DNA of 64,000 nucleotides from Acholeplasmataceae bacterium (GTDB taxonomy: Bacteria > Bacillota_I > Bacilli_A > Acholeplasmatales > Acholeplasmataceae). Below the pieces are notes generated by a model. It did not search any database. It was given only the letters and a program-made list of their open reading frames with translations, and was not told the origin of the DNA. Below, piece by piece: positions 42,022-61,041 of the stretch; positions within the stretch are counted from its first letter, which is position 1; each line of letters begins with the position of its first letter. Location: positions 124,001 through 188,000 of the forward strand of contig JAIOQX010000006.1 in NCBI GenBank assembly GCA_021108415.1, read 5' to 3'. Made by a program: the position numbers and the translations under genes.

Positions 42022-42036
42022 AAAAATCGCTAAAAA

Positions 42037-42066
42037 AAAGAACACTCAACTTTTTAAGTGTTCTTT
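42037..42066. terminator. Bidirectional terminator
   Basis: Arms AAAGAACACT (42037-42046) and AGTGTTCTTT (42057-42066), flanked by A and T runs. It ends the ferredoxin gene and the long amino-sugar operon. Confidence 0.88.
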
Positions 42067-42078
42067 TTTTTCGCAATT

Positions 42079-42801
42079 TTATAATTTTGATCCAGCTAAC
42101 TGATCAATGATAATAGTCACATCAGGATGTCTTTGTAAAATAGACGCTGGTAGATCTTCAGTGACAGTTCCATTAATCATCTTATGAATTGCATTTGCTT
42201 TTTCAATGCCACTAGCCATTAAGATAATCTTTTTACTTCTCATTATATTTTTAATACCCATTGTAATTGCATATTTTGGAACTTCATCTAGGGATTTAAA
42301 AAATCTTTTATTATCTTTTCTTGTTTGTTCATCTAATTCGACAATGAAAGTTTCATTTTCAAAAGGTGTACCTGGTTCATTAAATCCAATATGTCCATTA
42401 CTTCCAATACCTAAGATTTGTAAATCTATTTGATGTTTATTTAAATCTTCGTTATATAGTTGAGTAATTTTATCTATTTGTTTTTCGTCGTTATTTGGTA
42501 TATGTATGTTCTTTTTATTCATATCTACTAAACTAAAAAGATGTTTGTACATATATTGATAATAACTTTGAGAATGTTCTCTGTTGATGCCGATATATTC
42601 ATCAAGATTATAGCTTAAGACATTTTTAAAACTAATTTCTTTTCTTTGATATGCTTTAACCAAGTTATCGTATAACTTGATTGGTGTTGAACCAGTAGCA
42701 AGGCCTAAAACACTTTTTGGATTTATTTTAATTTGTTGGATGACAAGTTCACTAGCTTTTTGACTGACATCTTCATAATCTGTGCATTTAATAATCTTCA
42801 T
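42079..42801 (-). CDS. nagB: Glucosamine-6-phosphate deaminase
   Basis: A 240-residue protein. SYNLDEYIGI holds the catalytic Asp, and IGSNGHIGFNEPG the His and Glu. The length matches the short, non-allosteric Bacillus form (about 242) rather than E. coli (266). It converts glucosamine 6-phosphate to fructose 6-phosphate and ammonia, feeding amino sugars to glycolysis. It is the last gene of the muropeptide operon, 12 bp after murQ. NagA, which should supply its substrate, is not in the window. Confidence 0.94.
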   Translation of the reverse strand: MKIIKCTDYEDVSQKASELVIQQIKINPKSVLGLATGSTPIKLYDNLVKAYQRKEISFKNVLSYNLDEYIGINREHSQSYYQYMYKHLFSLVDMNKKNIHIPNNDEKQIDKITQLYNEDLNKHQIDLQILGIGSNGHIGFNEPGTPFENETFIVELDEQTRKDNKRFFKSLDEVPKYAITMGIKNIMRSKKIILMASGIEKANAIHKMINGTVTEDLPASILQRHPDVTIIIDQLAGSKL

Positions 42802-42813
42802 TTCATCAACTTC

Positions 42814-43716
42814 CTATACATTGTGTTTTAATGATTCTCTTATATTACCATGATGTCTATCTAACAATTCTTCAATCACCTTAGAATCTTCGATTTTACT
42901 CATGATCGCAAATATAGCAAATTTAACTGAACCATATTTGTCCAAATACTTTTGTGCGACTTCTGTTGATACACCAGTGACTTCAGTTACTATGATTTGA
43001 GCTCTAGAAACCAATTTATCATTATTCATTTGAACATCAACCATTAAATTTTCATAAACTTTTCCTATTTTTACCATCGATGCAGTTGTAATCATATTAA
43101 GAATAAGCTTTTGCGCTGTACCACTTTTCATACGTGTTGAACCAGTTAGTGGTTCTGCACCAGTAATCGCTTCTATAGGATATTTCGCTATGGCTGCAAC
43201 CTCAGAATCAGAACTCGTTGTAACACATGCAGTAATACACCCTAATTTATTAGCATATTCAACGCCTCCAATAACATAAGGCGTTCTTCCGCTAGCCGCA
43301 ATACCAACGACAACATCATTTTTATTTAAATGATGTTTTTCTAAATCTAATACTGCTGCAGCTTTAGAGTCTTCAATCCCTTCTATGGCAGTTCTAAGTG
43401 CTGTGTCTCCACCTGCAATAATACCGACAACTAAATCATCAGGCACACCAAAAGTAGGTGGGCATTCGCTTGCATCTAGTACACCTAAGCGTCCTGAAGT
43501 ACCCGCACCTATATAAAACAGACGTCCACCATTTGTAAATGCATCAGTAACTACATCTACAACCTTTGCAATTTGATCAATAACTTTTTCTACTGCTAAT
43601 GGAACCGTTTTGTCTTCGTTATTAATTAACTGTAAGATTTCAGTTGTAGAAACCAAATCGATATTCTTCGTTTTATGATTTCTTCTTTCTGTACTTATTT
43701 TGCTTATATCTACCAT
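42814..43716 (-). CDS. murQ: N-acetylmuramic acid 6-phosphate etherase
   Basis: A 300-residue SIS-domain enzyme. GAGTSGRLGVLDASECPPTFG and TALRTAIEGIEDS contain the family's conserved acidic residues. SRMKSGTAQKLILN-type GSTRMKSGTAQK is also present. It splits the lactyl ether of MurNAc 6-phosphate to give GlcNAc 6-phosphate and D-lactate. It is the diagnostic enzyme of muramic acid catabolism, so the operon must handle peptidoglycan sugars. It sits 4 bp after the kinase gene. Confidence 0.95.
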   Translation of the reverse strand: MVDISKISTERRNHKTKNIDLVSTTEILQLINNEDKTVPLAVEKVIDQIAKVVDVVTDAFTNGGRLFYIGAGTSGRLGVLDASECPPTFGVPDDLVVGIIAGGDTALRTAIEGIEDSKAAAVLDLEKHHLNKNDVVVGIAASGRTPYVIGGVEYANKLGCITACVTTSSDSEVAAIAKYPIEAITGAEPLTGSTRMKSGTAQKLILNMITTASMVKIGKVYENLMVDVQMNNDKLVSRAQIIVTEVTGVSTEVAQKYLDKYGSVKFAIFAIMSKIEDSKVIEELLDRHHGNIRESLKHNV

Positions 43717-43720
43717 AGTA

Positions 43721-44632
43721 TCACTCCTTAGAAAGCTTTAAAAGACTTAAATAGTATGCACCTTTAACGGGACTATTTGTGTTTGTGTCAATTTCAAAAT
43801 CTTTTATGCTCATTTCCAATTCTTTAATTAGTGTTTCTTTTACATAAGGAGCATTTGTTAAAAATCCTCCACGAAATGCAATAATAACTTTATCTTTTTC
43901 TTGTAGTTTTAAATATGCTTTAATCGTTTGTCTTGCTAAATGTTTTGCTTCATCTGTGATTAACTCTATCGCTTTTTCATCACCATCTAAAGCAAGTTTA
44001 CTTATGAATTTTGCTAAACTAGCAATCGTTGTCTTATCATTTTCATAAACATAATCTCTAACATCAAATTGATCTTTTAGATTGAGATGATTTAATATCT
44101 CTTTTGCAAAAGAATCAAACTCGCTTGAATCTTCATATTCATTAATAATGGTTTTTAATGCACTGATGCTTAAATGATATGCAGAACCTTCATCTCCTAA
44201 TAAATGTCCAAATCCTCCAACTTGTTCTAGTCGATATTGATCACTATACATTAAGACACTACCAGTGCCACCTATCACCATGATGACATTAACTTCTTCA
44301 TCTTTTTTTACATCATATAAAGCAATCAATACATCACTTTCTAGGCTTGCTGTCGCATGATATCTTTGAGAAATTTCTGCTTCATATGTTTTTCTATCTT
44401 TAATTTTAGAGTATCCTGATATCCCCATTTGAATAAACAATTCATCAGATGGTTTGATATCTTTTGTAAGATCATCTAAAACAATCAACATATTTTCTTT
44501 TGCTTTATTAATGTTTATATTAAAATTCGTAAATCCAGCAATACTTTTCTTTAATTCGTTACCTTCTATATCATATAACACACCAAGTGTTTTAGTTCCG
44601 CCACCATCTATACCAATAATATATTTACTCAT
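43721..44632 (-). CDS. murK: BadF/BadG-family amino-sugar kinase (MurK/NagK type)
   Basis: A 303-residue ASKHA-fold kinase. The phosphate loops are GIDGGGTKTLGVL and MVIGGTGSVLM, and GGFGHLLGDEGSAYHLS is the family signature. Clostridial MurK phosphorylates MurNAc and GlcNAc at O6. Sitting next to murQ with no muramate PTS in the window, it is the likely source of MurNAc 6-phosphate. GlcNAc-only specificity cannot be excluded. Its start overlaps the nagZ end by 8 bases. Confidence 0.85.
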   Translation of the reverse strand: MSKYIIGIDGGGTKTLGVLYDIEGNELKKSIAGFTNFNININKAKENMLIVLDDLTKDIKPSDELFIQMGISGYSKIKDRKTYEAEISQRYHATASLESDVLIALYDVKKDEEVNVIMVIGGTGSVLMYSDQYRLEQVGGFGHLLGDEGSAYHLSISALKTIINEYEDSSEFDSFAKEILNHLNLKDQFDVRDYVYENDKTTIASLAKFISKLALDGDEKAIELITDEAKHLARQTIKAYLKLQEKDKVIIAFRGGFLTNAPYVKETLIKELEMSIKDFEIDTNTNSPVKGAYYLSLLKLSKE

Positions 44633-46205
44633 ATTTAACAGGCACCTTTCCTTTTAACTTTAAACTACCTTTTAAATATTTTAATAAAACTTTTATAGAA
44701 TTTGGTGTGTACTCATAAAGACAAACATAGTTAGTGATATTTTTTGTGTAATATAGATCATATGGATTTCTCATAGAAATCACATGCATCTCTTTACCTA
44801 ACTCACTTAAATAATCAATCATTTTAATTTGTTCTTGAAAAACGTTTCCATTGTATGTTGTTACAATCAATTGATCATAGGCTTTAGCTTTTTCAATCAC
44901 TTCTAATATATCAAGATTTGAAGGTGATAGTGGAAGCTTGATTATATCTAGTTTAGGGATTTCTTTTTCAATACCTTTAAAGATATCATAATGTCCTAAA
45001 GCTTCATCTGCAATCGTTGTAGCTTTTGGCATGATGCCTACAAACAATGCACGATCACTTAAACTTAATTTCTTTCCTTTAACTAAACTTGCAGCACCTT
45101 CAACAATTGAATAACTTAATGCTTTAGTCTCATCATTTTCGACAATATCTTTAACATCCTCATAAGTCTGGTCAAAATTAACAGATACATATTGTTTCTT
45201 ATAATCTAGGATAAGTTGTACCCTTTGATCAATTAAAGCTTCATCAATTTCTTTATTTATGATTGCTTCTCTAAATCGTTTTATGGCTTGAATTTGATAA
45301 TCTCTAGAATGACAAATACAATAGATATTAGCTCCGGCCTTTACTGCCATTAAACATGCTTCGACTGTACCATAATTACTTTCAATAGATTTCATAGTCA
45401 TACCGTCAGTTACGATTAAACCTTTGAACCCTAATTTATTTCTTAAAAGTTTAGTCAATACATCTTCTGATAGAGTCGTTGGTAATCCGTCTTTAGTTAA
45501 GTGTGGAAAATCAATGTGACTACTCATCATTGCATGTAGACCATTATGGATTGAATCTACGAAAGGAACGAATTCAACTTTTTCTAATCGATCTAGATCA
45601 TATTCAACCTTTGGTAATGCTAAATGAGAGTCTACATGTGTATCACCATGACCTGGAAAATGCTTCCCTGTAGCGATTACGTGGTTTTGCATACCTTTGA
45701 TGAATGCTTGTCCATATTGACTTACAACCTTAGGATCATCAGAATAACTTCTAACACCAATAACAGGGTTTTTGGGGTTATTGTTAACATCAAGTACAGG
45801 TGCGAAATTCATATTGACACCTAGACTTTTAAGTTCTGATCCCATTTTATCTCCAACATTATAACAATCTTCTAAACTACCGTTTGCAGATATTGTCATT
45901 GCGCCAGGAAAAAAAGTTGCGCCTTGTTGAATTCTAGAAACCATGCCACCTTCTTGATCAATACCTATAAACATTGGTATATCAAGATGTTTGATTGCTT
46001 GTTCTTGTAATTGTTTATTTAGGTTATATAATTGTTCTCCACTTTTGATGTTTCTAGTAAATAAAATGACGTTGCCAGCTTTATATTTTTTAATGAATTC
46101 AATCGTCTTGTCGTCAATTGATTCGCCTTCAAAACCAAACATTAACAACTGTCCGATTTTTTCATCTAAGCTTAATTTACTTACATCAAATTTATGATTA
46201 TTCAT
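44625..46205 (-). CDS. nagZ: Beta-N-acetylglucosaminidase NagZ, GH3
   Basis: A 526-residue GH3 enzyme. The His-Asp dyad loop is KHFPGHGDTHVDSH and the nucleophile Asp is in VTDGMTM. A second C-terminal domain follows as in Bacillus NagZ. It removes terminal GlcNAc from GlcNAc-MurNAc. It lacks a signal peptide or membrane helix (starts MNNHKFDVSKLSLDEKIG), so it acts in the cytoplasm, unlike the secreted B. subtilis enzyme. Some GH3 enzymes of this dyad type are phosphorylases. It overlaps namZ and murK by 8 bases each. Confidence 0.93.
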   Translation of the reverse strand: MNNHKFDVSKLSLDEKIGQLLMFGFEGESIDDKTIEFIKKYKAGNVILFTRNIKSGEQLYNLNKQLQEQAIKHLDIPMFIGIDQEGGMVSRIQQGATFFPGAMTISANGSLEDCYNVGDKMGSELKSLGVNMNFAPVLDVNNNPKNPVIGVRSYSDDPKVVSQYGQAFIKGMQNHVIATGKHFPGHGDTHVDSHLALPKVEYDLDRLEKVEFVPFVDSIHNGLHAMMSSHIDFPHLTKDGLPTTLSEDVLTKLLRNKLGFKGLIVTDGMTMKSIESNYGTVEACLMAVKAGANIYCICHSRDYQIQAIKRFREAIINKEIDEALIDQRVQLILDYKKQYVSVNFDQTYEDVKDIVENDETKALSYSIVEGAASLVKGKKLSLSDRALFVGIMPKATTIADEALGHYDIFKGIEKEIPKLDIIKLPLSPSNLDILEVIEKAKAYDQLIVTTYNGNVFQEQIKMIDYLSELGKEMHVISMRNPYDLYYTKNITNYVCLYEYTPNSIKVLLKYLKGSLKLKGKVPVKYE

Positions 46206-47337
46206 ATATATGATATGTTCCTTTCAACTTTGTAAATGCCTTGGTGTCTTGTTCTATTTGTTTAAAGATATCTTTTAAGCTCACATCTCTTTTAGTTAAG
46301 AAATCATCACCCATTAAAGATTCCGCAAATTTATTTAATCCCTCTTTAAAAGGTGGAATCCAATCGAATTCTTCATGCATTTGTTTAACTAAATAAAGCA
46401 TAGCTAATCCTGTTTTTACAGGTTTAAATGTTTTTTTATCTTTAATAAACACTTCAACACCTTCGCATAATTGTTCTTTATGTTTAGAAAATGTAGGTGT
46501 GAAATATAGTGTTCTAAATTGTACGCCATCTAAGTTAAGCTCATTTAGTTTTTCTATGAGTAATTTACTTTTTAACCAAGGAGCACCGATCACTTCAAAT
46601 GGTTTTGTTGTTCCGCGTCCTTCACTTAAATTTGTCCCTTCAAAATAACAAGTAGCTAAATATGCATAAGTTGTCTGAACAGTCGGAATGTTTGGACTTG
46701 GAAATACCCATGGAAAATCAATTTCGCTGTAATCTTTATCTCTTGTATATCCACTCATTTTGATCACTTCAAGATCACAATTGATATCATATTCTTTATT
46801 GAAAAAATAAGCTAACTCACCTATAGTTAATCCATAACGTTCTACAATAGGGTAATATCCCACAAAAGATCTATAATTTAAATCAAGTATATTACCTTCA
46901 ACCTCTATACCACCCACTGGATTTGGTCTATCAAATACGACAAATTTCTTATCAAATTCTTTTGCAGCCATCATCGCATAAGCCATCGTATATAAGAATG
47001 TATAAAATCTTGCACCAACATCTTGAATATCAAAACACAAGACATCAATATCTTTTAACATTTCATAACTTGGTTTTTTATCTTTTCCATATAATGAATA
47101 GACCATACAACCTGTTTCAGTGTCTTTGTATGTTTCTAATCTAACACCCGCCTGCAAATCCCCTCTTACACCATGTTCTGGTGCATATAGGGCAACAAGA
47201 TCTGTTTTTTCTCTTAATATATCTATAGTTGATTTCAAATCTCGATTGATACCTGTAGGATTTGTGATAAGTCCGATTTTTTTATTTTTAAACAATTCTA
47301 GATGTTGATCTATATTTTCAATACCAACTTTAAACAT
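46198..47337 (-). CDS. namZ: Exo-beta-N-acetylmuramidase NamZ (DUF1343)
   Basis: A 379-residue DUF1343 protein. GLITNPTGINRD, LYAPEHGVRG and SLYGKDKKPS at the N-terminus, and FEGTNLSEGRGTTKPFEVIGAPW later, are the family's conserved blocks. B. subtilis NamZ (YbbC) removes MurNAc from the non-reducing end of glycan chains and pairs with NagZ. As with NagZ here, no signal peptide is present. It overlaps its neighbours by 8 bases on both sides. Confidence 0.88.
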   Translation of the reverse strand: MFKVGIENIDQHLELFKNKKIGLITNPTGINRDLKSTIDILREKTDLVALYAPEHGVRGDLQAGVRLETYKDTETGCMVYSLYGKDKKPSYEMLKDIDVLCFDIQDVGARFYTFLYTMAYAMMAAKEFDKKFVVFDRPNPVGGIEVEGNILDLNYRSFVGYYPIVERYGLTIGELAYFFNKEYDINCDLEVIKMSGYTRDKDYSEIDFPWVFPSPNIPTVQTTYAYLATCYFEGTNLSEGRGTTKPFEVIGAPWLKSKLLIEKLNELNLDGVQFRTLYFTPTFSKHKEQLCEGVEVFIKDKKTFKPVKTGLAMLYLVKQMHEEFDWIPPFKEGLNKFAESLMGDDFLTKRDVSLKDIFKQIEQDTKAFTKLKGTYHIYE

Positions 47338-47971
47338 CTTGTTTTACCAACCCTTCTACATAATCTACAACTTTATTTGTAATCAACACATTTAATAAGA
47401 CAGGAATAGATAATCCTGCAAAAACAAAGAATACCATCGTTACAGTTGACATAAGCATCAAAAATGGAACAGCTACAGTCAATACTAATAATATAGTTCT
47501 AAAAAAGAATTTGCCTGATAAATAAAATCCTAATTTAAACATTAATGTTAACTTTAATTTCGGTAGAATATGCATTACCGCTAATGAGTATAATGTAATA
47601 ATAAATGAACTTACCAAAACAGCTAATGTAAGATAATATCCAATTGTGAACAAGAAATTACTTTCTGCATTGAGTAAATCCACATAATATGTCACATTTA
47701 GATATCCAAGACCAATAATCACAAATATAATAAGACCTACAATGATTTTTTTCCCAATGTCTTCTAAGAAATATTGTATATATCCCTTAAATAACTTCTC
47801 TTCATCCTTATGGACATATTGATAAAACATCTTATATCCAGCAGTTAAACTCGGATAGATTGTGATAATTGCAAGACTGGATACAATCATCATGACATTA
47901 AGCATAATGATTCTAATAATCCAGTCTGCAACTGTATTAATTTTTTGATATAACGTTTTTTCATAAACCAT
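47330..47971 (-). CDS. DUF624 (YesL-like) membrane protein
   Basis: A 213-residue protein with five to six helices; YPSLTAGYKMFYQYV is the family motif region. DUF624 proteins commonly accompany carbohydrate ABC importers, but their role is unknown. It overlaps namZ by 8 bases and follows the permease gene by 15 bp, linking the transporter half and the enzyme half of the operon. Confidence 0.8.
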   Translation of the reverse strand: MVYEKTLYQKINTVADWIIRIIMLNVMMIVSSLAIITIYPSLTAGYKMFYQYVHKDEEKLFKGYIQYFLEDIGKKIIVGLIIFVIIGLGYLNVTYYVDLLNAESNFLFTIGYYLTLAVLVSSFIITLYSLAVMHILPKLKLTLMFKLGFYLSGKFFFRTILLVLTVAVPFLMLMSTVTMVFFVFAGLSIPVLLNVLITNKVVDYVEGLVKQDV

Positions 47972-47986
47972 GAAAAATCCTCTTTT

Positions 47987-48985
47987 CTAACCAACGATAC
48001 CTGTACGTTCGATAGATTCTACAAATTGTTTTTGTACAAATAGATACATAATCAATAACGGTAACATCATCAATAATGCAGATACATTAGAAATGAGTGC
48101 TAAGAATACTGGGTTTTCCCATACGTCTTGTCCGATTAGATTTAATCCGCCTGTATAGAATAATGCAGCATACATATTTTCAGCAGCATTGATCAATCTC
48201 ATTGTTAACAATGGAAAATCTTGAGTACTGACTTCAAAGATCTTAACAAAATAAGCATCATTCCATTGCCATACGAACGCAAATAATCCAACAGTAACTA
48301 GTGCGCCTCTTGCGTTTGGTAACATAACGCTCCAAAATGTTCTAAAGACTCCTGCACCATCAATCATTGCTGATTCTTCTAGTTCTTTTGGAAGTCCTCT
48401 AAAGAAACTTCTAAAAATGTAAATAAATATACCTGATCTAATACCCATGCCTAATCCACTCATTAAGTAAATCGATCCTTCTTTACCAATAAGCCCTAAA
48501 TCTCTAAAATACAAGTATTGAGCCAATGATAATGCTTGTGGTGGAATAACAATCGTTAATATAACAAATAGGAATAAAATATTACTTCCTTTAAATCTTA
48601 ATCTTGAAAAAGCATAACCAGCTAGTGCTGTTGATCCGATTTGAAGAATCATTGATATCAGACTTAGTTTAAATGAATTAAATACTGCATGTCTGTAATC
48701 TAGAACAATACTAGCAATCTTAATATTCATGATGCTCCAATTTTCAGGAATCCAAATAACAGCTGGATTATTGACATCAGATGGTGCACGAAGCGCCATT
48801 AATATCTGTTGAATAGTTGGAAAAAGAATTACGAAACATAACCCAATCAATAATACACTTCTGATAAATGAGAATGCAAAATTTTTAAATTTTCTTGAAC
48901 GTCTAGATTGATTCTTTGGATCTTTTATATCTTTGACGACGCCATGATATGCATCTCTTAATTGTTCAATAATATTAGTTTTCAT
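47987..48985 (-). CDS. Sugar ABC importer permease, MalG type (pair 1)
   Basis: A 332-residue protein with six helices. The ATPase-contact (EAA) loop is ELEESAMIDGAGVFRTFW, continuing SVMLPNARGAL. A basic, soluble N-terminal stretch of about 40 residues precedes the first helix. It pairs with the MalF-type protein encoded just upstream (11-base overlap). No MsmX/MalK-type ATPase is in the operon. Confidence 0.9.
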   Translation of the reverse strand: MKTNIIEQLRDAYHGVVKDIKDPKNQSRRSRKFKNFAFSFIRSVLLIGLCFVILFPTIQQILMALRAPSDVNNPAVIWIPENWSIMNIKIASIVLDYRHAVFNSFKLSLISMILQIGSTALAGYAFSRLRFKGSNILFLFVILTIVIPPQALSLAQYLYFRDLGLIGKEGSIYLMSGLGMGIRSGIFIYIFRSFFRGLPKELEESAMIDGAGVFRTFWSVMLPNARGALVTVGLFAFVWQWNDAYFVKIFEVSTQDFPLLTMRLINAAENMYAALFYTGGLNLIGQDVWENPVFLALISNVSALLMMLPLLIMYLFVQKQFVESIERTGIVG

Positions 48986-49916
48986 AGTGCGACTCTCCTA
49001 TCTTGAAGAATTTGGCAAATGCGCCTAATACGATTAAGATAAGAATAATTACTGCTACATAAATCCAAGCCATTGCTGATGATAATCCCCAATTTTGTTG
49101 ATTAAGTTCATCACTTATAATGGTTGACACTGAAGATGTTAAGAATGTATCCACAAGTGCATAAACAGTAACTGTAATAATATGTGGTGTAACATTTGGT
49201 AATGTGATTAGCCAGAACATTTCATAAGAAGTTGCACCTTCAATTTTTGCTGCTTCATATAGATGTTTTGGAATTGATTGAATACTTGCTAAAAACAATA
49301 GGATTGGAACTCCAGCAAGTGCTAGAATGTCATAAATACGATCAATTAATCCTACAATAAATGTAATCAAAAATGGTGCCATACCTGTTTGAAGTAAATA
49401 AAACTCTAAATCAAAGATTCTAGCAAGTCCTTGTTGTTCTAAGATGGCATTAATTGCTTCGCCGCCACCTACAGCAGATACAACAGCTGCAGAGTTTAGA
49501 ATGACAGGAACAAAGAATATCGCTCTAACAATTGCACGACCCTTAAACTTCATATTAAGCATAACTGCGATAAATAAACTAAATATTAGTAATACTGGCA
49601 GGTTAATTAATACATCAGTTGTTGTCGTTAACAACTCAACTCTAAAGGATGATGTTGATGTAACATGTGTATTAAATGCATATAAATAGTTTTCAAATCC
49701 GACAAATTCTTTAACAATTTCACCTGCTTGAGGTGTCAAATCAAAGAAGCTATATCTTAAGGATTCGATAAACGGTACTAAAAATAATAACATAATACCT
49801 GTTGCCCATGGCAATAAGAAAATAATTGCCCAAAAGAGTTTTTGTTTTTTATAAGTCATTTCTGGTAATTTTATTTTATTTGGTAGATGAAGACGTGCTT
49901 TTATACTTTTTTTCAT
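48975..49916 (-). CDS. Sugar ABC importer permease, MalF type (pair 1)
   Basis: A 313-residue protein with six helices. The EAA loop is LYEAAKIEGATSYEMFWLI, continuing TLPNVTPHI. It shares a TAATG stop/start junction with the DUF5696 gene upstream and overlaps its partner downstream by 11 bases. Confidence 0.9.
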   Translation of the reverse strand: MKKSIKARLHLPNKIKLPEMTYKKQKLFWAIIFLLPWATGIMLLFLVPFIESLRYSFFDLTPQAGEIVKEFVGFENYLYAFNTHVTSTSSFRVELLTTTTDVLINLPVLLIFSLFIAVMLNMKFKGRAIVRAIFFVPVILNSAAVVSAVGGGEAINAILEQQGLARIFDLEFYLLQTGMAPFLITFIVGLIDRIYDILALAGVPILLFLASIQSIPKHLYEAAKIEGATSYEMFWLITLPNVTPHIITVTVYALVDTFLTSSVSTIISDELNQQNWGLSSAMAWIYVAVIILILIVLGAFAKFFKIGESHYEN

Positions 49917-52519: not shown

Positions 52520-52529
52520 ATCTTCACCT

Positions 52530-53171
52530 CTAATATCTAAGATTTAATTCTTCATATATCGAGATAACAAATTCGATAAACTGTTGAATCAAATCAAAAA
52601 ATAACAACCCAAAAAACATCATGACTGCCATTGCAACCACTGTTAAAATAAAAGCCAAAATTGTTTTTCCAAGTCCATAATGGTGTATATTCAATACACC
52701 CATAAATAACATCCAAGCTGTTGCTCCATAAGCAAGTCCAATAATGAGTTGATATAACGCCATTTCTTCTAAAGTTAAAAAGTTAGACAATACAACTGCA
52801 GGATATCCAATGATGATGATTGGAAATAAAGCATAGCCTGTCATCATCACAATTTCTTTAAACTTACCTTTACCTTCCATTAGCGTTGTAACTGACCAAT
52901 TACCAATGGTAAATAGCGCAACTAACAACACAACAGAAAAGATTTCTTGTAAACTATTAAGCAATAGTGGGTTTCTCTCGTTAATTAAAAACCCTTCATT
53001 TTGATACGAAAATATTCTAAAAAACGCAAACAATGCAATAAATATTAACGCAACACTCAATTTCCCTTTTTTATATCTTTTGAATTCATCAAATCCGTCA
53101 AAGGGATGTAGCATGATGTATTTAGGGAAACTAACAAAATTAAACCAAATATATTTAAGTTTAGTCTTCAT
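52530..53171 (-). CDS. YIP1-family membrane protein
   Basis: A 213-residue protein. FVSFPKYIMLHPFDGFDEFKRYKKGK at the N-terminus precedes five hydrophobic helices, a Yip1-domain layout. Function unknown in bacteria. It overlaps the NHL/TPR gene by 11 bases and precedes the DUF5696 gene by 10 bp. Confidence 0.72.
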   Translation of the reverse strand: MKTKLKYIWFNFVSFPKYIMLHPFDGFDEFKRYKKGKLSVALIFIALFAFFRIFSYQNEGFLINERNPLLLNSLQEIFSVVLLVALFTIGNWSVTTLMEGKGKFKEIVMMTGYALFPIIIIGYPAVVLSNFLTLEEMALYQLIIGLAYGATAWMLFMGVLNIHHYGLGKTILAFILTVVAMAVMMFFGLLFFDLIQQFIEFVISIYEELNLRY

Positions 53172-54633
53172 AGAAAATCGAACCTCCCTTTTTATATGTT
53201 GATTTGATCTTAAGCCCTATTACAGTACCCGCAATTAAAACAATACCACCTAAAATATACCCAAAATTAGATTTAAGTATTTCATTTCGATAAGCTTTAT
53301 ATGCTTTTGAATAATAGTATTTATCATGTCCTAAATTAAAGTAAGTCAACGCTTCTTTATACAAGCCTTCTCTTAAATAATATTTACCTATACCATTATA
53401 AGCAATTTCATAATTCGTATTTAAGATAAGTACTTCTTCCCAAACTTCTGATGCAAGTTCAAACTCACCATTTGTATGATATTTAATAGCTTCATTTACT
53501 TTTGCTCCAAAGTTTGTCAATTGATAAACGATAACTGATCTAGCTTTTCTATCTAATACAAGCAAATTATCATTTAAATATGCTAGAGAAACACCCTCAG
53601 AAAACTTATCTGCTTGTGCACCGTCATCACCATTAATATATAATAGATTACCTTCACTATCATATGTAAATAATCTTGATCTCTTTTGATCTAAAACTGT
53701 AAAGATACCATCATCCGTATAAGCAATATCAACTAGAGAACTTGGTCCTTCTATAACATAATTATTTAATCCTTCGATATATTGAATATCTCCCATTGGT
53801 GGATGATATCCATTACGTTTCAAGACATCCACACCTTTTGGATTAATAAGCTGAATAATATTTTCAGCATTATCTTCTGCAGGTTTACTCGTTGCATAAA
53901 TGAAGTTTTTATCATTCATGACAACATTTGTATATTCAGTAGGAAGATAAAGTTGAAGTTGTGACAATTGTTCTTCTGTCATAATCGATCTTTGGAATAT
54001 TTCAATCGGATTTAATGATACCGGATTTACGCCTGTAAATCTATTAAAATCTCCATCTGTATCTAACTCTAAAATACCTTCATAAACGTTTCTAGCGACA
54101 ACATACATTCTCTCAGAGCCATCAACAGTGATCTTTCTTGGTTCAAAATTGATTTCATCAAAAGTTGCGTCATTAATATCGCTAAATATGTCAATAACTT
54201 CAAAATTGTGATTTAATTTAACAATTCTAAAATTCCCACTATCGGCAATATATATCGCACTATCTTTAACTTCAAGACCGTATGGTGATTCTAAAGTTAT
54301 ATCTAAAAATTCAGTTTGTCCCGCCTCTTCTAATCTTTCTTGATATTCAGCATTAATTGGAAAACTAGCATGTTGAGAAATCAATCCAAAATCTGAATCG
54401 ATTAAAAATAGCGAGTTATTACCTGAATCAATCATATAAATAATATCATCAAATACAACAATATCTTCTGGTGAAGAAAATGTCGTACCTACTGTATTAC
54501 CATTGAAGTAAGTCGCAAAGTTCATACCAGGTGCAGAGTGAATAACCTCACCATAATAAGAATAGTTATATCTGACCACAGACAATTGAACAGGTAATGA
54601 GATTAACATGGAAAATATCATAAATAGTTTCAT
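53161..54633 (-). CDS. NHL-repeat and TPR extracytoplasmic protein
   Basis: A 490-residue protein with a signal peptide or anchor at 1-20, then NHL-type beta-propeller repeats (FSSPEDIVVFDDIIYMIDSG and LESPYGLEVKDSAIYIADSG are two equivalent blades) to about 375. TPR-like helices (about 385-450) and a C-terminal membrane helix (about 457-478) follow. It likely sits outside the membrane as a scaffold or glycan/protein binder of the transport system. Function unknown. Confidence 0.75.
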   Translation of the reverse strand: MKLFMIFSMLISLPVQLSVVRYNYSYYGEVIHSAPGMNFATYFNGNTVGTTFSSPEDIVVFDDIIYMIDSGNNSLFLIDSDFGLISQHASFPINAEYQERLEEAGQTEFLDITLESPYGLEVKDSAIYIADSGNFRIVKLNHNFEVIDIFSDINDATFDEINFEPRKITVDGSERMYVVARNVYEGILELDTDGDFNRFTGVNPVSLNPIEIFQRSIMTEEQLSQLQLYLPTEYTNVVMNDKNFIYATSKPAEDNAENIIQLINPKGVDVLKRNGYHPPMGDIQYIEGLNNYVIEGPSSLVDIAYTDDGIFTVLDQKRSRLFTYDSEGNLLYINGDDGAQADKFSEGVSLAYLNDNLLVLDRKARSVIVYQLTNFGAKVNEAIKYHTNGEFELASEVWEEVLILNTNYEIAYNGIGKYYLREGLYKEALTYFNLGHDKYYYSKAYKAYRNEILKSNFGYILGGIVLIAGTVIGLKIKSTYKKGGSIFYED

Positions 54634-54643
54634 ATAACCCCTC

Positions 54644-55537
54644 CTACTTCATGCCGGAATGAGAGAACGTTTCAACAATTCTAGATTGTGAAAAGATGAA
54701 GAAAGTCACAGGCACAATCATCATAATGAAAGAGACTGCAGCAATCGTTCCAGCACGTTCAATCGTACCTTGCGCAATTTGTCTTAAAGCATAACTTACA
54801 GGTTTTAATTCCTCACTGAAAATAAATGATCCCCCATCAGTGATCCATAATCTTTGAAATAATAATATAATTAGTGTCAACCAAGCAGGCTTAACCAATG
54901 GCATCACAATCGTAAAGAAGATACGATACTCGCTAGCACCATCTATTTTTGCACTTTCAATCAATTCATTTGGTATTTGTTCCATAAACTGTTTCATCAA
55001 ATAAAGACCAAGTGAAGATGCGATTGCCGGTAAGATTATAGCTGCTGGATTATCAATTAATCCTAGCCTAGAGATGATAATATAATTAGGTGTTGCAGTC
55101 ACTTGAGGTGCAAACATCAATGAATACACAACAAGTGTGAAAATTAATGTTCTTCCAGGAAACTTGTATTTAGCTAGTGGATAAGCAGCCATAGAGGCGA
55201 TCAATACATGCCCAAAAGTACCTAATACTGTAATTAAAATTGTATTAAAGAAATATCTTGTAAAAGGAATCCAAGAATTACTCATTAATTCTGATAAATC
55301 TCTAAAGTTATCAAATGTAACATTTCTTGGTAATAGTCGAGGTGGGAACAAGAATAACTCATCTAAAGGCTTAAATGCATTAGATGCAGTCATAATTAGT
55401 GGAAATGCACTAAATGCCCCAAACAAGATTAAAATAGTAAATAACGCTATATCTCCAGCTCTTGATCTATTGATTCTTTTTTTCTTTCGATATTTTCTGT
55501 TTTTAATATTTTCAATCATAGCATTCATTCTACTCAC
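54644..55537 (-). CDS. Sugar ABC importer permease, MalG type (pair 2)
   Basis: A 297-residue protein with six helices. The EAA loop is ELIESAKIDGASEYRIFF, continuing TIVMPLVKPAW. A very basic N-terminus (RKYRKKKRINR) faces the cytoplasm. It overlaps its MalF-type partner by 8 bases. Confidence 0.9.
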   Translation of the reverse strand: MSRMNAMIENIKNRKYRKKKRINRSRAGDIALFTILILFGAFSAFPLIMTASNAFKPLDELFLFPPRLLPRNVTFDNFRDLSELMSNSWIPFTRYFFNTILITVLGTFGHVLIASMAAYPLAKYKFPGRTLIFTLVVYSLMFAPQVTATPNYIIISRLGLIDNPAAIILPAIASSLGLYLMKQFMEQIPNELIESAKIDGASEYRIFFTIVMPLVKPAWLTLIILLFQRLWITDGGSFIFSEELKPVSYALRQIAQGTIERAGTIAAVSFIMMIVPVTFFIFSQSRIVETFSHSGMK

Positions 55538-56456
55538 CTACCTTTCTTAAGATAGATCGAACAACAATATTTGTTGTCATCATAATTAAGAATAGCAATG
55601 TCGCAATAGCTGATGCATACCCTAAATCAAATCTTGTAGACCCATAATCAATCAAATGGGTTACAATCGTATGTCCTGCATATTGTATAGACGGAAATCC
55701 CACAAGTTGCATAGAAACTTCTGCAATCGCAAGGGATGTCGTAATTTGCATCACGGCACCAAATAATAATTGAGGTTTCATTGAAGGTAAGGTAATAAAC
55801 CATAATTCTTGCCATCTATTTCTAATACCATCGATTGCTCCAGCTTCATAAAGTGTTTTATCAACACTTTGAAGACCTGCGATAAACGCAAGAAATGATA
55901 CACCTAAACTTAGCCATAATTGAACTAAGATAATTACAAATAACATGTAATCTGGATTTTTTAACCATAATATAGGATTATCAATAAATCCTAAATTCAT
56001 TAAAATAGCATTTGCATACCCATGTACATCTCCAGAAAATATAAGTAGCCATATCAAAAAGGCATTACCAGAAATGGATGGTGCATAAAAGATTAAAGTC
56101 ATAAAAGCTCTTAGCTTAGGTTTTAATTCATTGATTAACCAAGCAAATAAGAAGGCTAATAAATAACTTACAGGTCCTGTTACAACAGCTAGAATTAACG
56201 TGTTTTTTAAAGCAATAATAAACACATCATCTTCTAATAATAGTTTTGTATAATTGTCTAGTCCAATAAATCTAGGACTTTCAAGTAAATTAAAATATGT
56301 AAAACTTATGCCTAAAGACATAAAGACAGGAATGATCGTAAATGTAAGAAATAAAATAACATATGGAGCCATTAATACGTAATTGTGTTTGCTTTTTTTA
56401 ATATCTTTCCATAACTGCTGACGTTTAGTCAGTTTCATGTCCATTGGTTTTTGCAT
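55530..56456 (-). CDS. Sugar ABC importer permease, MalF type (pair 2)
   Basis: A 308-residue protein with six helices. The EAA loop is LYEAGAIDGIRNRWQELWF, continuing ITLPSMKPQ. It follows the large binding-protein gene by 16 bp. The second permease pair differs clearly from the first, so the operon encodes either two transporters or a heteromeric system. Confidence 0.9.
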   Translation of the reverse strand: MQKPMDMKLTKRQQLWKDIKKSKHNYVLMAPYVILFLTFTIIPVFMSLGISFTYFNLLESPRFIGLDNYTKLLLEDDVFIIALKNTLILAVVTGPVSYLLAFLFAWLINELKPKLRAFMTLIFYAPSISGNAFLIWLLIFSGDVHGYANAILMNLGFIDNPILWLKNPDYMLFVIILVQLWLSLGVSFLAFIAGLQSVDKTLYEAGAIDGIRNRWQELWFITLPSMKPQLLFGAVMQITTSLAIAEVSMQLVGFPSIQYAGHTIVTHLIDYGSTRFDLGYASAIATLLFLIMMTTNIVVRSILRKVGE

Positions 56457-56472
56457 ATGAATGCCTCCTTCC

Positions 56473-59388
56473 TTAATCTAGATCGAATTCTCTTCTCTTC
56501 TTCTCTATTTCTTCATTGATTACTTGAACGTAATCATAAATTGTTTCTCTTGGATTTGAATAATCATTAATGACTAATCTAAACGCATTGTCTAAATGTC
56601 TACCAGTCATATATCCACCTGGTACCTCTGGTACGCCTTGTACCCATTGCCATTGATTGTATAATTTTTCATATTCTTTAACTGTCCAAGGCAGTTGAGC
56701 TAGCGCATCAACATTAGCAGTTGGATAACGTGCAGCAGCTCCTAAGATACCTTCCATTTCTCGTCCAAATTGAACTTGGATATCTGTAGAAGTCCACCAT
56801 TTTAAGTATTCCCATGAAGCATCTTTTTTATTTGATTGGTCCATGATCATAACGCCAGTATTGGTAGAAACTGTATCTCTTCTGATTTGGGTATCTCCAA
56901 ATTCATCTACATATTCTGTACCAGGTACAGCAACGAAATCCCATTTGCCTCTAATTTCAGGTGCAAATACACTTAACGTATTGTAGACGTTATAATAAGT
57001 GATCCCAATAGGCATTTGTCCACTTCTAAATCTATTGACAAAGTTCGCTTCAACTGGGAATGAATAATCTGTATAAAACTGTGTCCACGTTTCAAAAACT
57101 TCTGGTCCCATACCTTCATTAAATCCACTTTCAGTATTACCATTGATGTAGAATTCTCCATCATTTTGATAAAACATTGTCGCAAATATTGGATTTGCTG
57201 GTAAGTTAACCACAGCACCTTGTGTAATTGGAACTGGTAGATAAAACTCTAAATTATGTTTTTGAAGATCTGGAATCATTGAGATTACATCTCTCCACGT
57301 ATCTGGAACGGGTAAATCCAATTCTTCAAATATATCTGTTCTATAAAACATCATTAGAAATATTTGTTGTTCAGGAAGTGCATAGTATCCGCCTTCATAT
57401 TCAAAGCCAACCATAGAACTATCCATAAATCTATCTTTTACTGTATAAAAATCATCAAATTGTGATAAATCATAAGATGCATTTCTCATCGCGTAGTTTA
57501 CAGGAATGTTATATCCAACACCCATCGCTACATCTGGTCCTTCACCTGCAAGTGTTGCCGGTAATAAAACAGCTCCATTAACAAGTTTTAAATCAACTTG
57601 AATGCCATAGTTTGGTGTAAATGACTCATCAATAAGTTTTCTTAAAATGTTTGCTTGATCCTTACCAACTGATAACCATACTTCAATGGTTTCATTTACA
57701 TTTCCTACTTCAGTTTGGCCTATAGCAGCATAATCAGTTGTAAAACTTGCAAAAAATGCACTGATACTAAATACCATACGTTTAAACCATGAAGCTTTAT
57801 TTTGTGGTAATTTTACTTCAGGGTCATGCAGTATAAAATAATCTATTTCAAGTGGTTGTTCTGATAACAAGATAACCAAAGTCCCAAGTGAAGAAATGTT
57901 CGCACTATAGTTTGATAAGTTTTTATGTATTTCTCTTGGTTTTTTGACAAAATCTTCTAATTGAAGAATAACAGTATCTAAGATACCCGTTTTCTCACTT
58001 TTAGATCCAGAAATCTCAATGATTCTCTCTCTAATATTAGATAGATTAATTCGTTGTTCTTCAAGTCTATAAACTAAGTTAACCACTCTTTTTTCTAATT
58101 CATAATCTCTATATGGATCCGGCTCTGGTCCCGTATAGACTAATATCTCTCTATAAAGCTTATTTAATTCATTAATTGAATTTTGAATTTGTGCGATTAA
58201 AGGACCATACTCACCAAGTGATACTTCCATCGTAATTTCATGAAAACCTGCTTCTAGATAAAATAGATAAGGTTCATCATTTGTACCTAGTGTCTGTATG
58301 CGCCATTCACTAGAATATGCAAATTGATAGTTTTCCATTTCCGCAAATGGAAGATTTCCATCAATATATATATTTCTACTCACATTCATACCTGAAGCAA
58401 GCTTTTGTTTAACACGCATACTAATTGCATGTAGTCCTGTTTCTTCAACTTCAAACTCCCAAGTAATTTTATCTCCTGAAACACGCCAGTTAGCCCCACC
58501 TATTGTATTTAGTTTAATAAGAGATGGATCACTTGGCATCGTTAAAGGACTTGTTCTATCGTTTAATGCATATAAAGTTGGTGATGATGTATAAAATGGT
58601 GTTTCAGCTTGTGTAATTAATGAAGTGTTTTCTACTACATCATATCCATTTTGCATATAAGTCTGATAAACATCTTCATAACTTTCAACATCTACAATTG
58701 ATAATAATTCAATTGAATCAATTAATAATGGTTCTCTTATAGACTCTAAGGTTAAAGTGTTTCTTCCCTCTTCAAAATAAAAAGCATAGGGTTCATTCAC
58801 ATACCCTATAGAATCTTTAACAAAATCATTTGTCCAAAATGGTGTTTCTATTTGACTAGGTCTAATATCATTTCCATGAATATCAATTTCTTTTTCGCCA
58901 TCACTAGCCCAAATGCGATGAAATACAATATTATTCGCTCCTTCAAATGGAACTTCACCATTAATCATAAGTACTCTTTCAATTGAAGAACTTTTTCCTT
59001 CATATGGAAAATAGTTAAGTTTAATATTATAAAATCCTGCAACATCAACATCTACATTCCATGTTACAGATCCACTTTCTAAAGTAAGTAATGGATTACT
59101 AATACCTTGATAGTTGTTTAATATTTCTTGTTCACCATCAATACTTGCATAATCAGAAGCTTCGATTGTAATGGCTTGACCAGTTGGGTATATTTGCGGT
59201 TGATTTTCTACATAGCTAAAATAAGCAGATGCATCATAATCACCTAACTCGCTTTGATCAGTCACCGTTACTGATTCCCTATTATAATCTAAGTATCTTG
59301 TCTGTGCCGCTACAATGAGGCTATCGATAATTGCATATAATGTAATTGCCAATATAATTGATAAAGATATAATAATAAATTTTTTCAT
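56473..59388 (-). CDS. Large membrane-tethered sugar-binding protein
   Basis: A 971-residue protein. One N-terminal hydrophobic helix (about 4-27) has no lipobox Cys, so it is an uncleaved anchor or ordinary signal. Two beta-rich carbohydrate-binding-like modules follow (about 70-235 and 290-400; VDVDVAGFYNIKLNYFPYEG and FEVEETGLHAISMRVKQK are equivalent strands). A helical linker (about 405-530) leads to a family-1 type solute-binding domain (about 560-960, with GEGPDVAMGVGYN and YALPEQQIFLMMFYRTDIF). It is far larger than usual binding proteins (about 450). The RBS is GGGAGT. Confidence 0.8.
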   Translation of the reverse strand: MKKFIIISLSIILAITLYAIIDSLIVAAQTRYLDYNRESVTVTDQSELGDYDASAYFSYVENQPQIYPTGQAITIEASDYASIDGEQEILNNYQGISNPLLTLESGSVTWNVDVDVAGFYNIKLNYFPYEGKSSSIERVLMINGEVPFEGANNIVFHRIWASDGEKEIDIHGNDIRPSQIETPFWTNDFVKDSIGYVNEPYAFYFEEGRNTLTLESIREPLLIDSIELLSIVDVESYEDVYQTYMQNGYDVVENTSLITQAETPFYTSSPTLYALNDRTSPLTMPSDPSLIKLNTIGGANWRVSGDKITWEFEVEETGLHAISMRVKQKLASGMNVSRNIYIDGNLPFAEMENYQFAYSSEWRIQTLGTNDEPYLFYLEAGFHEITMEVSLGEYGPLIAQIQNSINELNKLYREILVYTGPEPDPYRDYELEKRVVNLVYRLEEQRINLSNIRERIIEISGSKSEKTGILDTVILQLEDFVKKPREIHKNLSNYSANISSLGTLVILLSEQPLEIDYFILHDPEVKLPQNKASWFKRMVFSISAFFASFTTDYAAIGQTEVGNVNETIEVWLSVGKDQANILRKLIDESFTPNYGIQVDLKLVNGAVLLPATLAGEGPDVAMGVGYNIPVNYAMRNASYDLSQFDDFYTVKDRFMDSSMVGFEYEGGYYALPEQQIFLMMFYRTDIFEELDLPVPDTWRDVISMIPDLQKHNLEFYLPVPITQGAVVNLPANPIFATMFYQNDGEFYINGNTESGFNEGMGPEVFETWTQFYTDYSFPVEANFVNRFRSGQMPIGITYYNVYNTLSVFAPEIRGKWDFVAVPGTEYVDEFGDTQIRRDTVSTNTGVMIMDQSNKKDASWEYLKWWTSTDIQVQFGREMEGILGAAARYPTANVDALAQLPWTVKEYEKLYNQWQWVQGVPEVPGGYMTGRHLDNAFRLVINDYSNPRETIYDYVQVINEEIEKKRREFDLD

Positions 59389-59410
59389 TACAATCCACTC
59401 CCTTTGAATA

Positions 59411-59435
59411 ATCCCCCTTTAAGTTAAAGGGGGAT
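59411..59435 (-). other. Perfect intergenic hairpin, probable mRNA stabiliser
   Basis: Arms ATCCCCCTTTAA (59411-59422) and its exact complement (59424-59435). No T run follows on the transcribed strand, so it is not a standard terminator. It lies between the first gene (binding lipoprotein) and the rest of the operon, where such hairpins often protect the upstream message and raise binding-protein levels. Confidence 0.6.
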
Positions 59436-59451
59436 AGGTTTCTTTTTCTTA

Positions 59452-61041
59452 TCAGTTTAAATAATCTTCTAATGCAGTTTCATAGATCGGTTTAATACGA
59501 TCCATTTCAGTTCTTGCAGTTCCTTCTCTAATACCTAAGTTAATACTTCTTCTCCAACCAGTTTCACCATAAGCACCAATACCAATAGCATTGATTAATT
59601 CTAGATAAACACTGTCATAGATATCAAGATAAGCTTCAACATATAATTCATCATCAAATTTAGTTAACAATGTCAATTCAAACTCATCTGCTAATTCTGC
59701 ATCAGTTTTCCATAATTGAAGTTCATTCCAAACTTGGAATACTAAAGCTTCTTTTTCTGCAGTCATACCACTTGCAACATTATAAATTGCTACACCTGAT
59801 ATTGGAGAAACATAATCACCAGTAAATGTGTCTGATACAGGATATGGAACAAAGCCTAATTCAAATGCTAATCCACCCCATCTGTTATCTGCTGTTACAA
59901 ACCATAAATGGCCAGGATGCATAGCAACTTTACCAGTTTGCCATAAAACACTACCTGAATCATAAGTTCCACTAGGTTCAAACAATCCTTGATTGTTTAA
60001 ATCACTTAAGAAAGTATATGTTTCAAGTGCTGGATTTTGAGCAAATGATACTCTACCAGTAGTTGCGTTAATTAAACTACCACCATTTAGAGCGACCATT
60101 GATTCAGCATAAGCACTGAAAGCACCACCTAATGCAAATAAATCTTCTCCTTGAGCAGAAAGTGCAGTTTGTACTTGTGTTGCCCAAGTTTCAAAACCTG
60201 TCCAATTCCAATCTCCATCTAAATATAATTGAGAAGGATTATCAACACCAAGACTTGAAACTAAGTCTGCGTTATAATATAGTCCAACATCAACAGTTAA
60301 ATTGTTTGCGCCAAAGCCATAAACTTTATTTGCATATTCTCCAACCATTCTAAAATCTGAATGGATATTTGAACCTGTTGTAGCTAAATATTGATCAACA
60401 GGAACAATTGCATTTGCATCAGCTAATTGTTGAACCCAGTCACTTGTCGTCCAATATAGATCAGCAAGTGGTTCACCAGCAACTGAAGCATTAATAATTG
60501 CAGTTATACGACTTGGTCCCCAAGCAGCACTTGCAGGATACGCGCGATATATAACATTCACATTTAATCTATCTTCAACTTCTGTTTGTAAAGCTTGTCT
60601 TGCAGCTTGTTCAGTACCACTAAAATCTGCATGGAATGGGTCTACCTCATAAGGTGCACCATGCATAATTACGATATCAGTAGGTTCAGGAACTTCGCCA
60701 TCCTCTGTTCTTACTGTTATTCTTCTAGTTGCAGTTACTTCTTTGCCATCACTGCCGGTAACTTTATAAGTTAATGTATATGTACCTGCATTTGAAGTAT
60801 CTACAGCACCTGTAAGTGTGATATTTGAATTTGCGATTGCACCATCTACAGAATCTGTAGCTGATACTCCATTAAATGGATCAAATACAACTCCATAATC
60901 TATCGTAGCATCTACAACTCCTGAAATAGATGCAGTTGCATCTGGATCAACTGGATCTATAGGATCTACAGGATCATCGCCACATGCAACGATACCAAAA
61001 GCTAGAGCTATTATTAAAAACATCCCTAATATTTTTTTCAT
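59452..61041 (-). CDS. Sugar-binding lipoprotein with Ig-like domain
   Basis: A 529-residue protein. The signal peptide ends in the lipobox IVAC. A bacterial Ig-like domain of the DUF5011 type (about 35-110, ending TYTLTYKVTGSDGKEVTATR) comes before the solute-binding domain (about 120-525). It is the first gene of the operon, 63 bp before the larger binding protein. The ligand is unknown; peptidoglycan sugars are inferred from the downstream murQ-nagZ-namZ genes. GAGAGGATAT precedes the ATG. Confidence 0.85.
   Translation of the reverse strand: MKKILGMFLIIALAFGIVACGDDPVDPIDPVDPDATASISGVVDATIDYGVVFDPFNGVSATDSVDGAIANSNITLTGAVDTSNAGTYTLTYKVTGSDGKEVTATRRITVRTEDGEVPEPTDIVIMHGAPYEVDPFHADFSGTEQAARQALQTEVEDRLNVNVIYRAYPASAAWGPSRITAIINASVAGEPLADLYWTTSDWVQQLADANAIVPVDQYLATTGSNIHSDFRMVGEYANKVYGFGANNLTVDVGLYYNADLVSSLGVDNPSQLYLDGDWNWTGFETWATQVQTALSAQGEDLFALGGAFSAYAESMVALNGGSLINATTGRVSFAQNPALETYTFLSDLNNQGLFEPSGTYDSGSVLWQTGKVAMHPGHLWFVTADNRWGGLAFELGFVPYPVSDTFTGDYVSPISGVAIYNVASGMTAEKEALVFQVWNELQLWKTDAELADEFELTLLTKFDDELYVEAYLDIYDSVYLELINAIGIGAYGETGWRRSINLGIREGTARTEMDRIKPIYETALEDYLN

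Follow-up and report, generated by a model that had tools for sequence, protein, structure and literature searches.

A predicted peptidoglycan-utilisation locus in wall-less Acholeplasmataceae

Introduction

Why would a bacterium that builds no cell wall carry a long operon for the import and breakdown of cell wall sugars? The question is raised by a 64,000-nucleotide stretch of DNA (the window; positions 124,001 to 188,000 of contig JAIOQX010000006.1, GenBank assembly GCA_021108415.1) from an Acholeplasmataceae bacterium. Here, positions 42079-61041 encode solute-binding proteins, permeases, glycosidases, a kinase, MurQ and NagB. An earlier, sequence-only reading proposed that, were the host a wall-less mollicute, this would be a system for scavenging other bacteria's walls. 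It suggested searching the genome for wall synthesis genes and nagA, and related genomes for the same gene order. A complete wall synthesis set, it said, would point to recycling instead.

We have followed up this proposal. The host genome (G000) is 1.78 Mb in size and 99.85% complete, and our genome-wide statements about it rest on targeted family searches. We conclude, with a probability of about 0.86, that the locus is a peptidoglycan-utilisation system of wall-less Acholeplasmataceae, by which they feed on other bacteria's walls, probably those of dead cells.

Results

A co-directional operon with genes for muramic acid sugars

The operon comprises 15 open reading frames (ORFs), one more than first counted, all on the minus strand. 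Neighbouring genes overlap by 1-11 bp (1-17 bases had been claimed) or are separated by 4-16 bp. The single exception is a 63-bp gap that contains a hairpin, as the sequence-only reading had described. Family profile matches identified all of the genes named in that reading. In order of transcription, the products are a lipoprotein solute-binding protein, a 971-residue solute-binding protein, ATP-binding cassette (ABC) permeases a1 and a2, an NHL/TPR protein, a YIP1 protein, a DUF5696 protein, permeases b1 and b2, a DUF624 protein, NamZ, NagZ, a BadF-type kinase, MurQ and NagB.

The catabolic genes come last. MurQ, the N-acetylmuramic acid (MurNAc) 6-phosphate etherase (42814-43716), scores 388 bits against TIGR00274 (cut-off 302). 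NagB, the glucosamine-6-phosphate deaminase (42079-42801), scores 285 bits against TIGR00502 (cut-off 236.9). Both domains of the exo-β-N-acetylmuramidase NamZ (46198-47337) are present (PF07075, 279 bits; PF20732, 160 bits). The NagZ-type protein (44625-46205) belongs to glycoside hydrolase family 3 (PF00933, 308 bits), contains the motif KHFPGHGDT..DSH and matches a β-N-acetylglucosaminidase of that family in the PDB (6k5j, 2e-94). No signal peptide was seen in the sequence of NagZ or NamZ. For the BadF-family kinase (43721-44632; PF01869), the closest solved structure is a MurNAc/N-acetylglucosamine (GlcNAc) kinase (8zo3, 1e-25). This suggests a MurK-type enzyme, with predicted specificity for both sugars.

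Terminator-like hairpins flank the operon on its own strand. One lies directly 3' of nagB (42032-42071; 18 pairs followed by a T-rich tail). The other, found in a hairpin scan, is 5' of the operon (61214-61244). Just two weak terminator candidates were found on the same strand inside the operon. The 11-bp hairpin (59411-59435), in the 63-bp gap that separates the genes of the two binding proteins, has no U-tract in the direction of the operon. It is conserved in the same gap, with an altered loop, in genomes G022 and G024 and in Acholeplasma brassicae. Given the flanking hairpins and the weakness of the internal candidates, the simplest reading is that 42079-61041 is one transcription unit. 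In the genus, the operon is followed closely by a gene for a GGDEF diguanylate cyclase (39696-41339 in the window; also L033, L034 and L035). Possible cyclic-di-GMP signalling by a bacterium without a wall may merit attention in its own right.

The host has no recognised route to a wall

The host family, Acholeplasmataceae, also contains A. equifetale (L075) and A. laidlawii PG-8 (G005); A. brassicae 0502 (G148) belongs to the same order. The transpeptidase domain of penicillin-binding proteins (PF00905) was found in none of the 88 family genomes; 10 of 14 control genomes were positive. MurC-F were not found in the host, where the Mur ligase domain (PF08245) has a single match; MurA, MraY and MurG were not searched separately. 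The matching ORF, of 414 residues, looks like FolC and is taken for it. Most walled-looking members of the order have 4-7 such matches. Judged by these profiles, the host makes no peptidoglycan by a known route. The complete synthesis set that would have pointed to recycling was not found, and the proposal of scavenging by a wall-less host is borne out to that extent.

One rival to be weighed is that the cell recycles its own peptidoglycan, as Bacillus and Escherichia coli do. MurQ, NagZ, NamZ and AnmK serve this purpose in walled bacteria. Moreover, one relative with Mur ligases (G159) has a rearranged version of the operon adjoining AnmK. With no transpeptidase in the family and no MurC-F in the host, own-wall recycling is nevertheless refuted, barring an unrecognised pathway of wall synthesis, and its probability is negligible.

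The locus continues past the window edge

The extent first given, 42079-61041, describes a real operon and omits an upstream part. The latter runs on the same (minus) strand from 61286 to beyond the window end (L053, L090). Coordinates above 64000 are window numbering extended past that end.

The first upstream gene (61286-63763) encodes a secreted surface protein with an Ig-like domain and a C-terminal membrane anchor (kept in L054, L055, L059, L111, L112 and L114). Next is an Amidase_2 (N-acetylmuramoyl-L-alanine amidase) lipoprotein, the 3' end of which is in the window (63896-64000, continuing to 67135). A beta-lactamase-family protein (67128-68186; PF00144, 161 bits) has PBP4B as its best NCBIfam match, below cut-off, and is predicted to be AmiE/PBP4B-like. 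Two GHL10 proteins follow: a surface protein with two such domains (68183-72211; PF02638, 415 bits over both) and a protein with one (72208-73428; PF02638, 213 bits). No signal peptide was seen in the sequence of the beta-lactamase-family or single-GHL10 protein. Beyond a glycoside hydrolase family 4 (GH4) protein (73430-74740) lies the anhydro-MurNAc kinase AnmK (74772-75911; PF03702, 338 bits; NF007142, 490.6 bits, cut-off 435). Three independent MurNAc-specific functions (MurQ, NamZ and AnmK) are encoded in one locus. GHL10 is the domain of Cwp19, a demonstrated lytic transglycosylase (PMC6016235), and this fits with the presence of an anhydroMurNAc kinase in the same locus.

Two side observations concern these proteins. 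The surface protein and the double-GHL10 protein (L053:6183-10211; also L054, L055 and L114) share a C-terminal motif, TGC[GF]SAI...SAIF[IV]TF.L.LG, followed by basic residues, which is possibly an unrecognised anchoring or sorting signal. Several g10 genomes have a second BadF-family kinase, ~25% identical to MurK, between GH4 and AnmK (L098:395-1375, L100:2705-3676, L107:1992-2963).

Gene order is kept among relatives

Of 160 genomes in the order, 38 encode NamZ: 27 of 88 from the host family, 10 of 13 from f4, the one genome of f5 (1/1) and none from f2 and f3. Strong MurQ matches occur in all 38, and also in G030. The gene order down to MurQ, over the genes covered by each stretch, is identical in 19 of the 20 NamZ loci examined, G159 being the exception. 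The same order in relatives, which the sequence-only reading had recommended looking for, is therefore there. Since order is so widely kept and MurQ accompanies every NamZ, the operon arrangement is far beyond chance.

The upstream order is kept in G022, G024 and A. laidlawii. Over the stretches covered, it is also kept in A. brassicae, G031 and A. equifetale, the last without the beta-lactamase-family and GH4 genes. In A. laidlawii the following are encoded contiguously (L111, L039): regulator, AnmK, GH4, both GHL10 proteins, beta-lactamase-family protein, amidase, surface protein, importer, NamZ to MurQ, a GNAT protein, NagB, ROK-like protein and PIG-L. The GNAT gene adjoins MurQ in many relatives. 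In G155, MurQ is split into two adjacent ORFs (L051:13454-14684), by a frameshift or an assembly error.

The locus could instead be a leftover of a walled ancestor's recycling pathway, or could remove muropeptides to evade host sensing. Wall loss in the order is indeed secondary (PMC10868615). However, the genes are intact and highly conserved. The permeases are the best-conserved part, mostly 70-97% identical across genera (79-97% for permease a2); the BadF-type kinase is 32-56% identical beyond the genus. An importer, a regulator, lactate oxidation and outer hydrolases also belong to the locus, and record titles place several of its carriers in sediment-type samples and not in hosts. We consider a leftover, or evasion, very improbable.

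General uptake of amino sugars or chito-oligosaccharides, with the MurNAc genes as a side branch, deserves slightly more weight. For GlcNAc oligomers, too, NagZ, NagB and a dual-specificity kinase would be of use, some relatives have GH20 genes on the flanks of the operon, and other sugars are served by paralogues of this type of importer. Conversely, MurQ, NamZ and AnmK act on muramic acid compounds, MurQ is in every NamZ genome, and the amidase and GHL10 proteins belong to the conserved locus. Hence, this explanation too is improbable, though less so than the previous one.

The importer is a branch of a wider family

The lipoprotein solute-binding protein (59452-61041; PF13416, PF01547, PF16403) has an Ig-like domain and the lipobox GIVAC. 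Its PDB matches are mainly chitinase Ig-like domains, with one weak match to a sugar-binding protein, and give no substrate inference. The 971-residue binding protein (56473-59388; PF01547, PF13416) has a CBM35-like part (CBM_35 below cut-off). Permeases a1 (55530-56456), a2 (54644-55537), b1 (48975-49916) and b2 (47987-48985) all match PF00528. Between the pairs are the NHL/TPR-like protein (53161-54633; NHL E-value 3e-6), with a C-terminal membrane segment, the YIP1-domain membrane protein (52530-53171; PF04893) and the membrane-anchored DUF5696 protein of the importer module (49916-52519; PF18952, 528 bits). The DUF624/MusI-like membrane protein (47330-47971; PF04854) matches the MusI family below cut-off.

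Two paralogous modules elsewhere in the host consist of a large solute-binding protein, a permease pair, an NHL-YIP1 fusion, DUF5696 and a second permease pair. Among members of the peptidoglycan branch, in wall-less genomes of the order, permeases a1 and a2 are 75-97% identical, versus ~40% to the paralogues. The module type is thus a general one for glycans, and by these identities the peptidoglycan version is a branch of its own. The host genome encodes, elsewhere, one strong MalK-type ATPase, of the UgpC/MsmK type, which is presumably shared among importers. The substrate, we infer, is muro-oligosaccharides.

The sequence-only reading held that ABC uptake and a kinase replace uptake by a phosphotransferase system (PTS). 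The locus does have two ABC permease pairs and the MurK-type kinase; no PTS gene lies within it (a genome-wide PTS search was not made). The locus is therefore not of the PTS-based type.

DUF5696 was found in 79 of the order's 160 genomes, and double-permease modules with DUF5696 and the NHL-YIP1 fusion recur beside other glycosidases (L080, L081, L082, L083, L085). We found no paper describing its function in the open-access literature. The AlphaFold2 model is poor (mean pLDDT, the model's per-residue confidence, 47), and PDB profile matches cover about 70 residues only.

A PIG-L protein may take the place of NagA

NagA had been named as the only missing step. The carbohydrate esterase family 9 NagA (TIGR00221) is indeed absent genome-wide in the host, with none over cut-off in its genus. 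The sole host match, at 21.8 bits, covers only the tail of the model; the ORF, of 424 residues, was rejected as a NagA in disguise. The step itself has a strong candidate in the extended locus, a PIG-L protein (82936-83784; PF02585, 61 bits, cut-off 28.2). It is next to a ROK-like protein (83803-85200, L090:7803-9200; weak ROK similarity, 30 bits).

The two enzymes tend to replace one another. Among the 38 NamZ genomes, 21 have only a PIG-L of ~282 residues and 14 only NagA. Both occur in two (G043, where NagA is a fragment, and G159) and neither in one (G149). Fisher's test gives a nominal p of 1.7e-7, a value inflated by relatedness. Gene context points the same way. The PIG-L and nagB genes share 4 bp in both G027 and G028, and MurQ is not followed by nagB in the import operon of G028. 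A. laidlawii, A. equifetale and G003 have PIG-L after NagB and the ROK-like gene. Four genomes of family f11 have it inside an ABC sugar operon, after a NagB-II/GlmS-like SIS-type gene. NagB and PIG-L match opposite ends of one NCBIfam model, NF002557, which we take to be a model of a NagB-LmbE fusion. The putative metal ligands H33, D36 and H147 are invariant in 17 sequences; such His/Asp/His ligands of the family are named in PMC4101496. A single-sequence PDB search gave no match, and a PIG-L profile found one LmbE-related structure, weakly.

We think it probable that PIG-L acts on GlcNAc-6-phosphate (GlcNAc-6-P) and/or GlcNAc, replacing NagA; from its genomic context, it is a predicted GlcNAc-6-P deacetylase. 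Another, unrecognised enzyme might deacetylate the sugar, with PIG-L serving something else, for instance the sugar of its ROK-like partner. The two genes adjoin in nearly every case, and sisters with NagA have the ROK-like gene as well. Unlike the ROK-like gene, however, PIG-L is absent from the NagA-bearing sisters G002 and G004. It also overlaps nagB, and in f11 pairs with an unrelated SIS-type gene. A different deacetylase is thus unlikely, though a serious contender.

The ROK-like protein (~460 residues; L090:7803-9200 and homologues), usually encoded next to PIG-L, is without a sequence relative in the PDB. The f11 bacteria (G363, G380, G421, G280; L146, L147, L148, L150) have small genomes. 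Their ABC sugar operon, which also encodes a ROK regulator, a UgpC-type ATPase of its own, the NagB-II/GlmS-like SIS protein and PIG-L, is perhaps a second NagA-free amino-sugar pathway.

Lactate capture and a candidate operator

MurQ splits MurNAc-6-phosphate (MurNAc-6-P) and releases D-lactate. A flavin adenine dinucleotide (FAD) dehydrogenase (FAD_binding_4/FAD-oxidase_C, 77054-78451; GlcD-like NCBIfam match below cut-off) is encoded with the electron transfer flavoproteins EtfA (78453-79646) and EtfB (79655-80491), all on the minus strand. This trio adjoins the regulator in genomes of genera g1 and g10, is directly downstream of MurQ in G159, and is near MurQ in G075. The arrangement expected of an LDH-EtfAB lactate oxidation complex, a FAD_binding_4/FAD-oxidase_C protein beside EtfA and EtfB, was found at three loci. 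From its placement, the dehydrogenase is predicted to oxidise the D-lactate with EtfAB and to capture the lactyl group. The G075 genome has, between MurQ and the Etf genes, a gene for a phosphodiester glycosidase (NAGPA; L048:3934-5484).

The regulator (76080-76934, minus strand; L053:14080-14934) is of the MurR/RpiR type, with HTH_6 and SIS domains; all of its NCBIfam scores are below cut-off. A palindrome, TGAAAAATATTTTTCA (61156-61171), is 115 bp before the first import gene. Allowing up to 1 mismatch, TGAAAAATWATTTTCA occurs 10 times in the 854 kb of DNA examined, always in intergenic DNA, which makes up only 4.6% of bases. Because of partial homology between sites, and overlap between some of the stretches, the 10 occurrences do not count as independent. 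Five are located ahead of the first import gene (G000, G022, G024, G031, A. brassicae), three ahead of the ROK-PIG-L genes (G023, G031, G038) and two ahead of a lipoprotein gene that separates the Etf genes from PIG-L (G024, G025). In G031 the palindrome is found at both the import operon and ROK-PIG-L, and so connects the two units. No such palindrome was found within the A. laidlawii stretches examined. The MurR/RpiR-type protein probably regulates the locus through this candidate operator.

Discussion

We propose the following pathway. The surface Amidase_2 lipoprotein and the surface-anchored double-GHL10 protein would release glycan fragments, some with 1,6-anhydroMurNAc ends. Two binding proteins and the double-permease ABC importer, powered by the MsmK/UgpC-type ATPase, would take these up. 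In the cytoplasm, NagZ, NamZ, the single-GHL10 protein and the AmiE/PBP4B-like protein would yield GlcNAc, MurNAc and anhydroMurNAc, and MurK and AnmK would phosphorylate the released sugars. MurQ would convert MurNAc-6-P to GlcNAc-6-P and D-lactate. The PIG-L protein, in NagA's place, would produce glucosamine-6-phosphate, from which NagB would supply glycolysis with fructose-6-phosphate. The FAD dehydrogenase and EtfAB would oxidise the D-lactate. Control would be exerted by the MurR/RpiR-type regulator via the palindromic site.

It takes Acholeplasma no more than 2 h to incorporate 13C from dead E. coli; the authors of that study proposed peptides and nucleic acid precursors as the carbon sources (PMC4628116). 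Our locus would be a gene-level candidate explanation for this fast uptake. It would also help to answer how free-living wall-less bacteria live in sediments and slurries, where dead bacterial walls would be a large pool of carbon and nitrogen.

Several points count against peptidoglycan feeding, or against the part assigned to PIG-L. Activity, binding and growth rest on gene-level prediction. The paralogous importer modules at other loci of the host mean that the importer type, by itself, is not peptidoglycan-specific. The 13C study used other Acholeplasma species, and wall carbon was indistinguishable from other cell carbon (PMC4628116). G149 (82% complete) has NamZ with neither NagA nor PIG-L. 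On the NamZ tree there are at least five switches between NagA and PIG-L, and about five carry the complementarity. The strongly supported branches alone leave two independent pairs, with the predicted direction in most pairings and no significance. Since the PIG-L family includes enzymes for several N-acetyl sugars, the substrate could be GlcNAc rather than GlcNAc-6-P.

A broader view can be taken, towards which we lean with rather less assurance than towards the PIG-L assignment itself. Free-living wall-less mollicutes, A. laidlawii included, may be dedicated peptidoglycan consumers. A contiguous locus of ~35-40 kb would allow them to attack the sacculus from outside, import muro-oligosaccharides through the double-permease ABC system, and recover both the sugars and the lactyl group. 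PIG-L would be an unrecognised GlcNAc-6-P deacetylase, repeatedly exchanged with NagA. This predicts a new enzyme function in genomes that seem to have no NagA. The same gene set is present in the culturable A. laidlawii, which makes the hypothesis directly testable.

How does the locus compare with known systems? The muropeptide rescue operon of Bacillus subtilis is murQ-murR-murP-amiE-nagZ-namZ. Here too, one locus encodes MurQ, an RpiR-type regulator, NagZ, NamZ and a protein of the beta-lactamase family that is predicted to be AmiE-like. Conversely, an ABC importer and kinases stand in for the MurP PTS, NagZ and NamZ lack signal peptides, a secreted amidase and GHL10 proteins are added, and the host has no wall. 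In Clostridium acetobutylicum, a MurK/MurQ pathway with a MurNAc/GlcNAc kinase is accompanied by the GNAT protein GlmA. We likewise find a BadF-family kinase followed by MurQ, and a GNAT gene beside MurQ in many relatives, whereas the clostridial host is walled. We know of no AnmK, PIG-L or lactate genes in the clostridial pathway. By analogy, the locus would work like the B. subtilis operon combined with clostridial MurK.

Other systems share single features. In Spiroplasma, also a wall-less mollicute, MurNAc use was inferred from murP and murQ, and this lowers the novelty of the bare idea. That route is PTS-based and takes free MurNAc; the parts of those reports consulted mention no oligosaccharide importer, glycosidases, amidase or regulator (PMC4607517, PMC3563533). 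Tannerella forsythia (MurT/MurK/MurQ) uses MurNAc from other bacteria via a MurNAc kinase, but builds its wall from it (PMC5790795), unlike the wall-less host studied here. The Agrobacterium YejBEF-YepA transporter is an ABC system that imports peptidoglycan fragments; it is a different transporter and serves recycling in a walled host (PMC9790009). Clostridioides difficile Cwp19 is a surface protein with a PF02638 domain (PMC6016235), whereas our locus has a double-GHL10 protein and a separate cytoplasmic one, with no wall to remodel. We found no description of the locus in Acholeplasma in the open-access literature, subscription papers not being covered. Thus, the MurQ, MurK and NamZ pathways, and PTS-based MurNAc use as inferred in Spiroplasma, were known already. 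What is new is the complete locus in wall-less hosts, together with the predicted role of PIG-L and the proposed capture of lactate.

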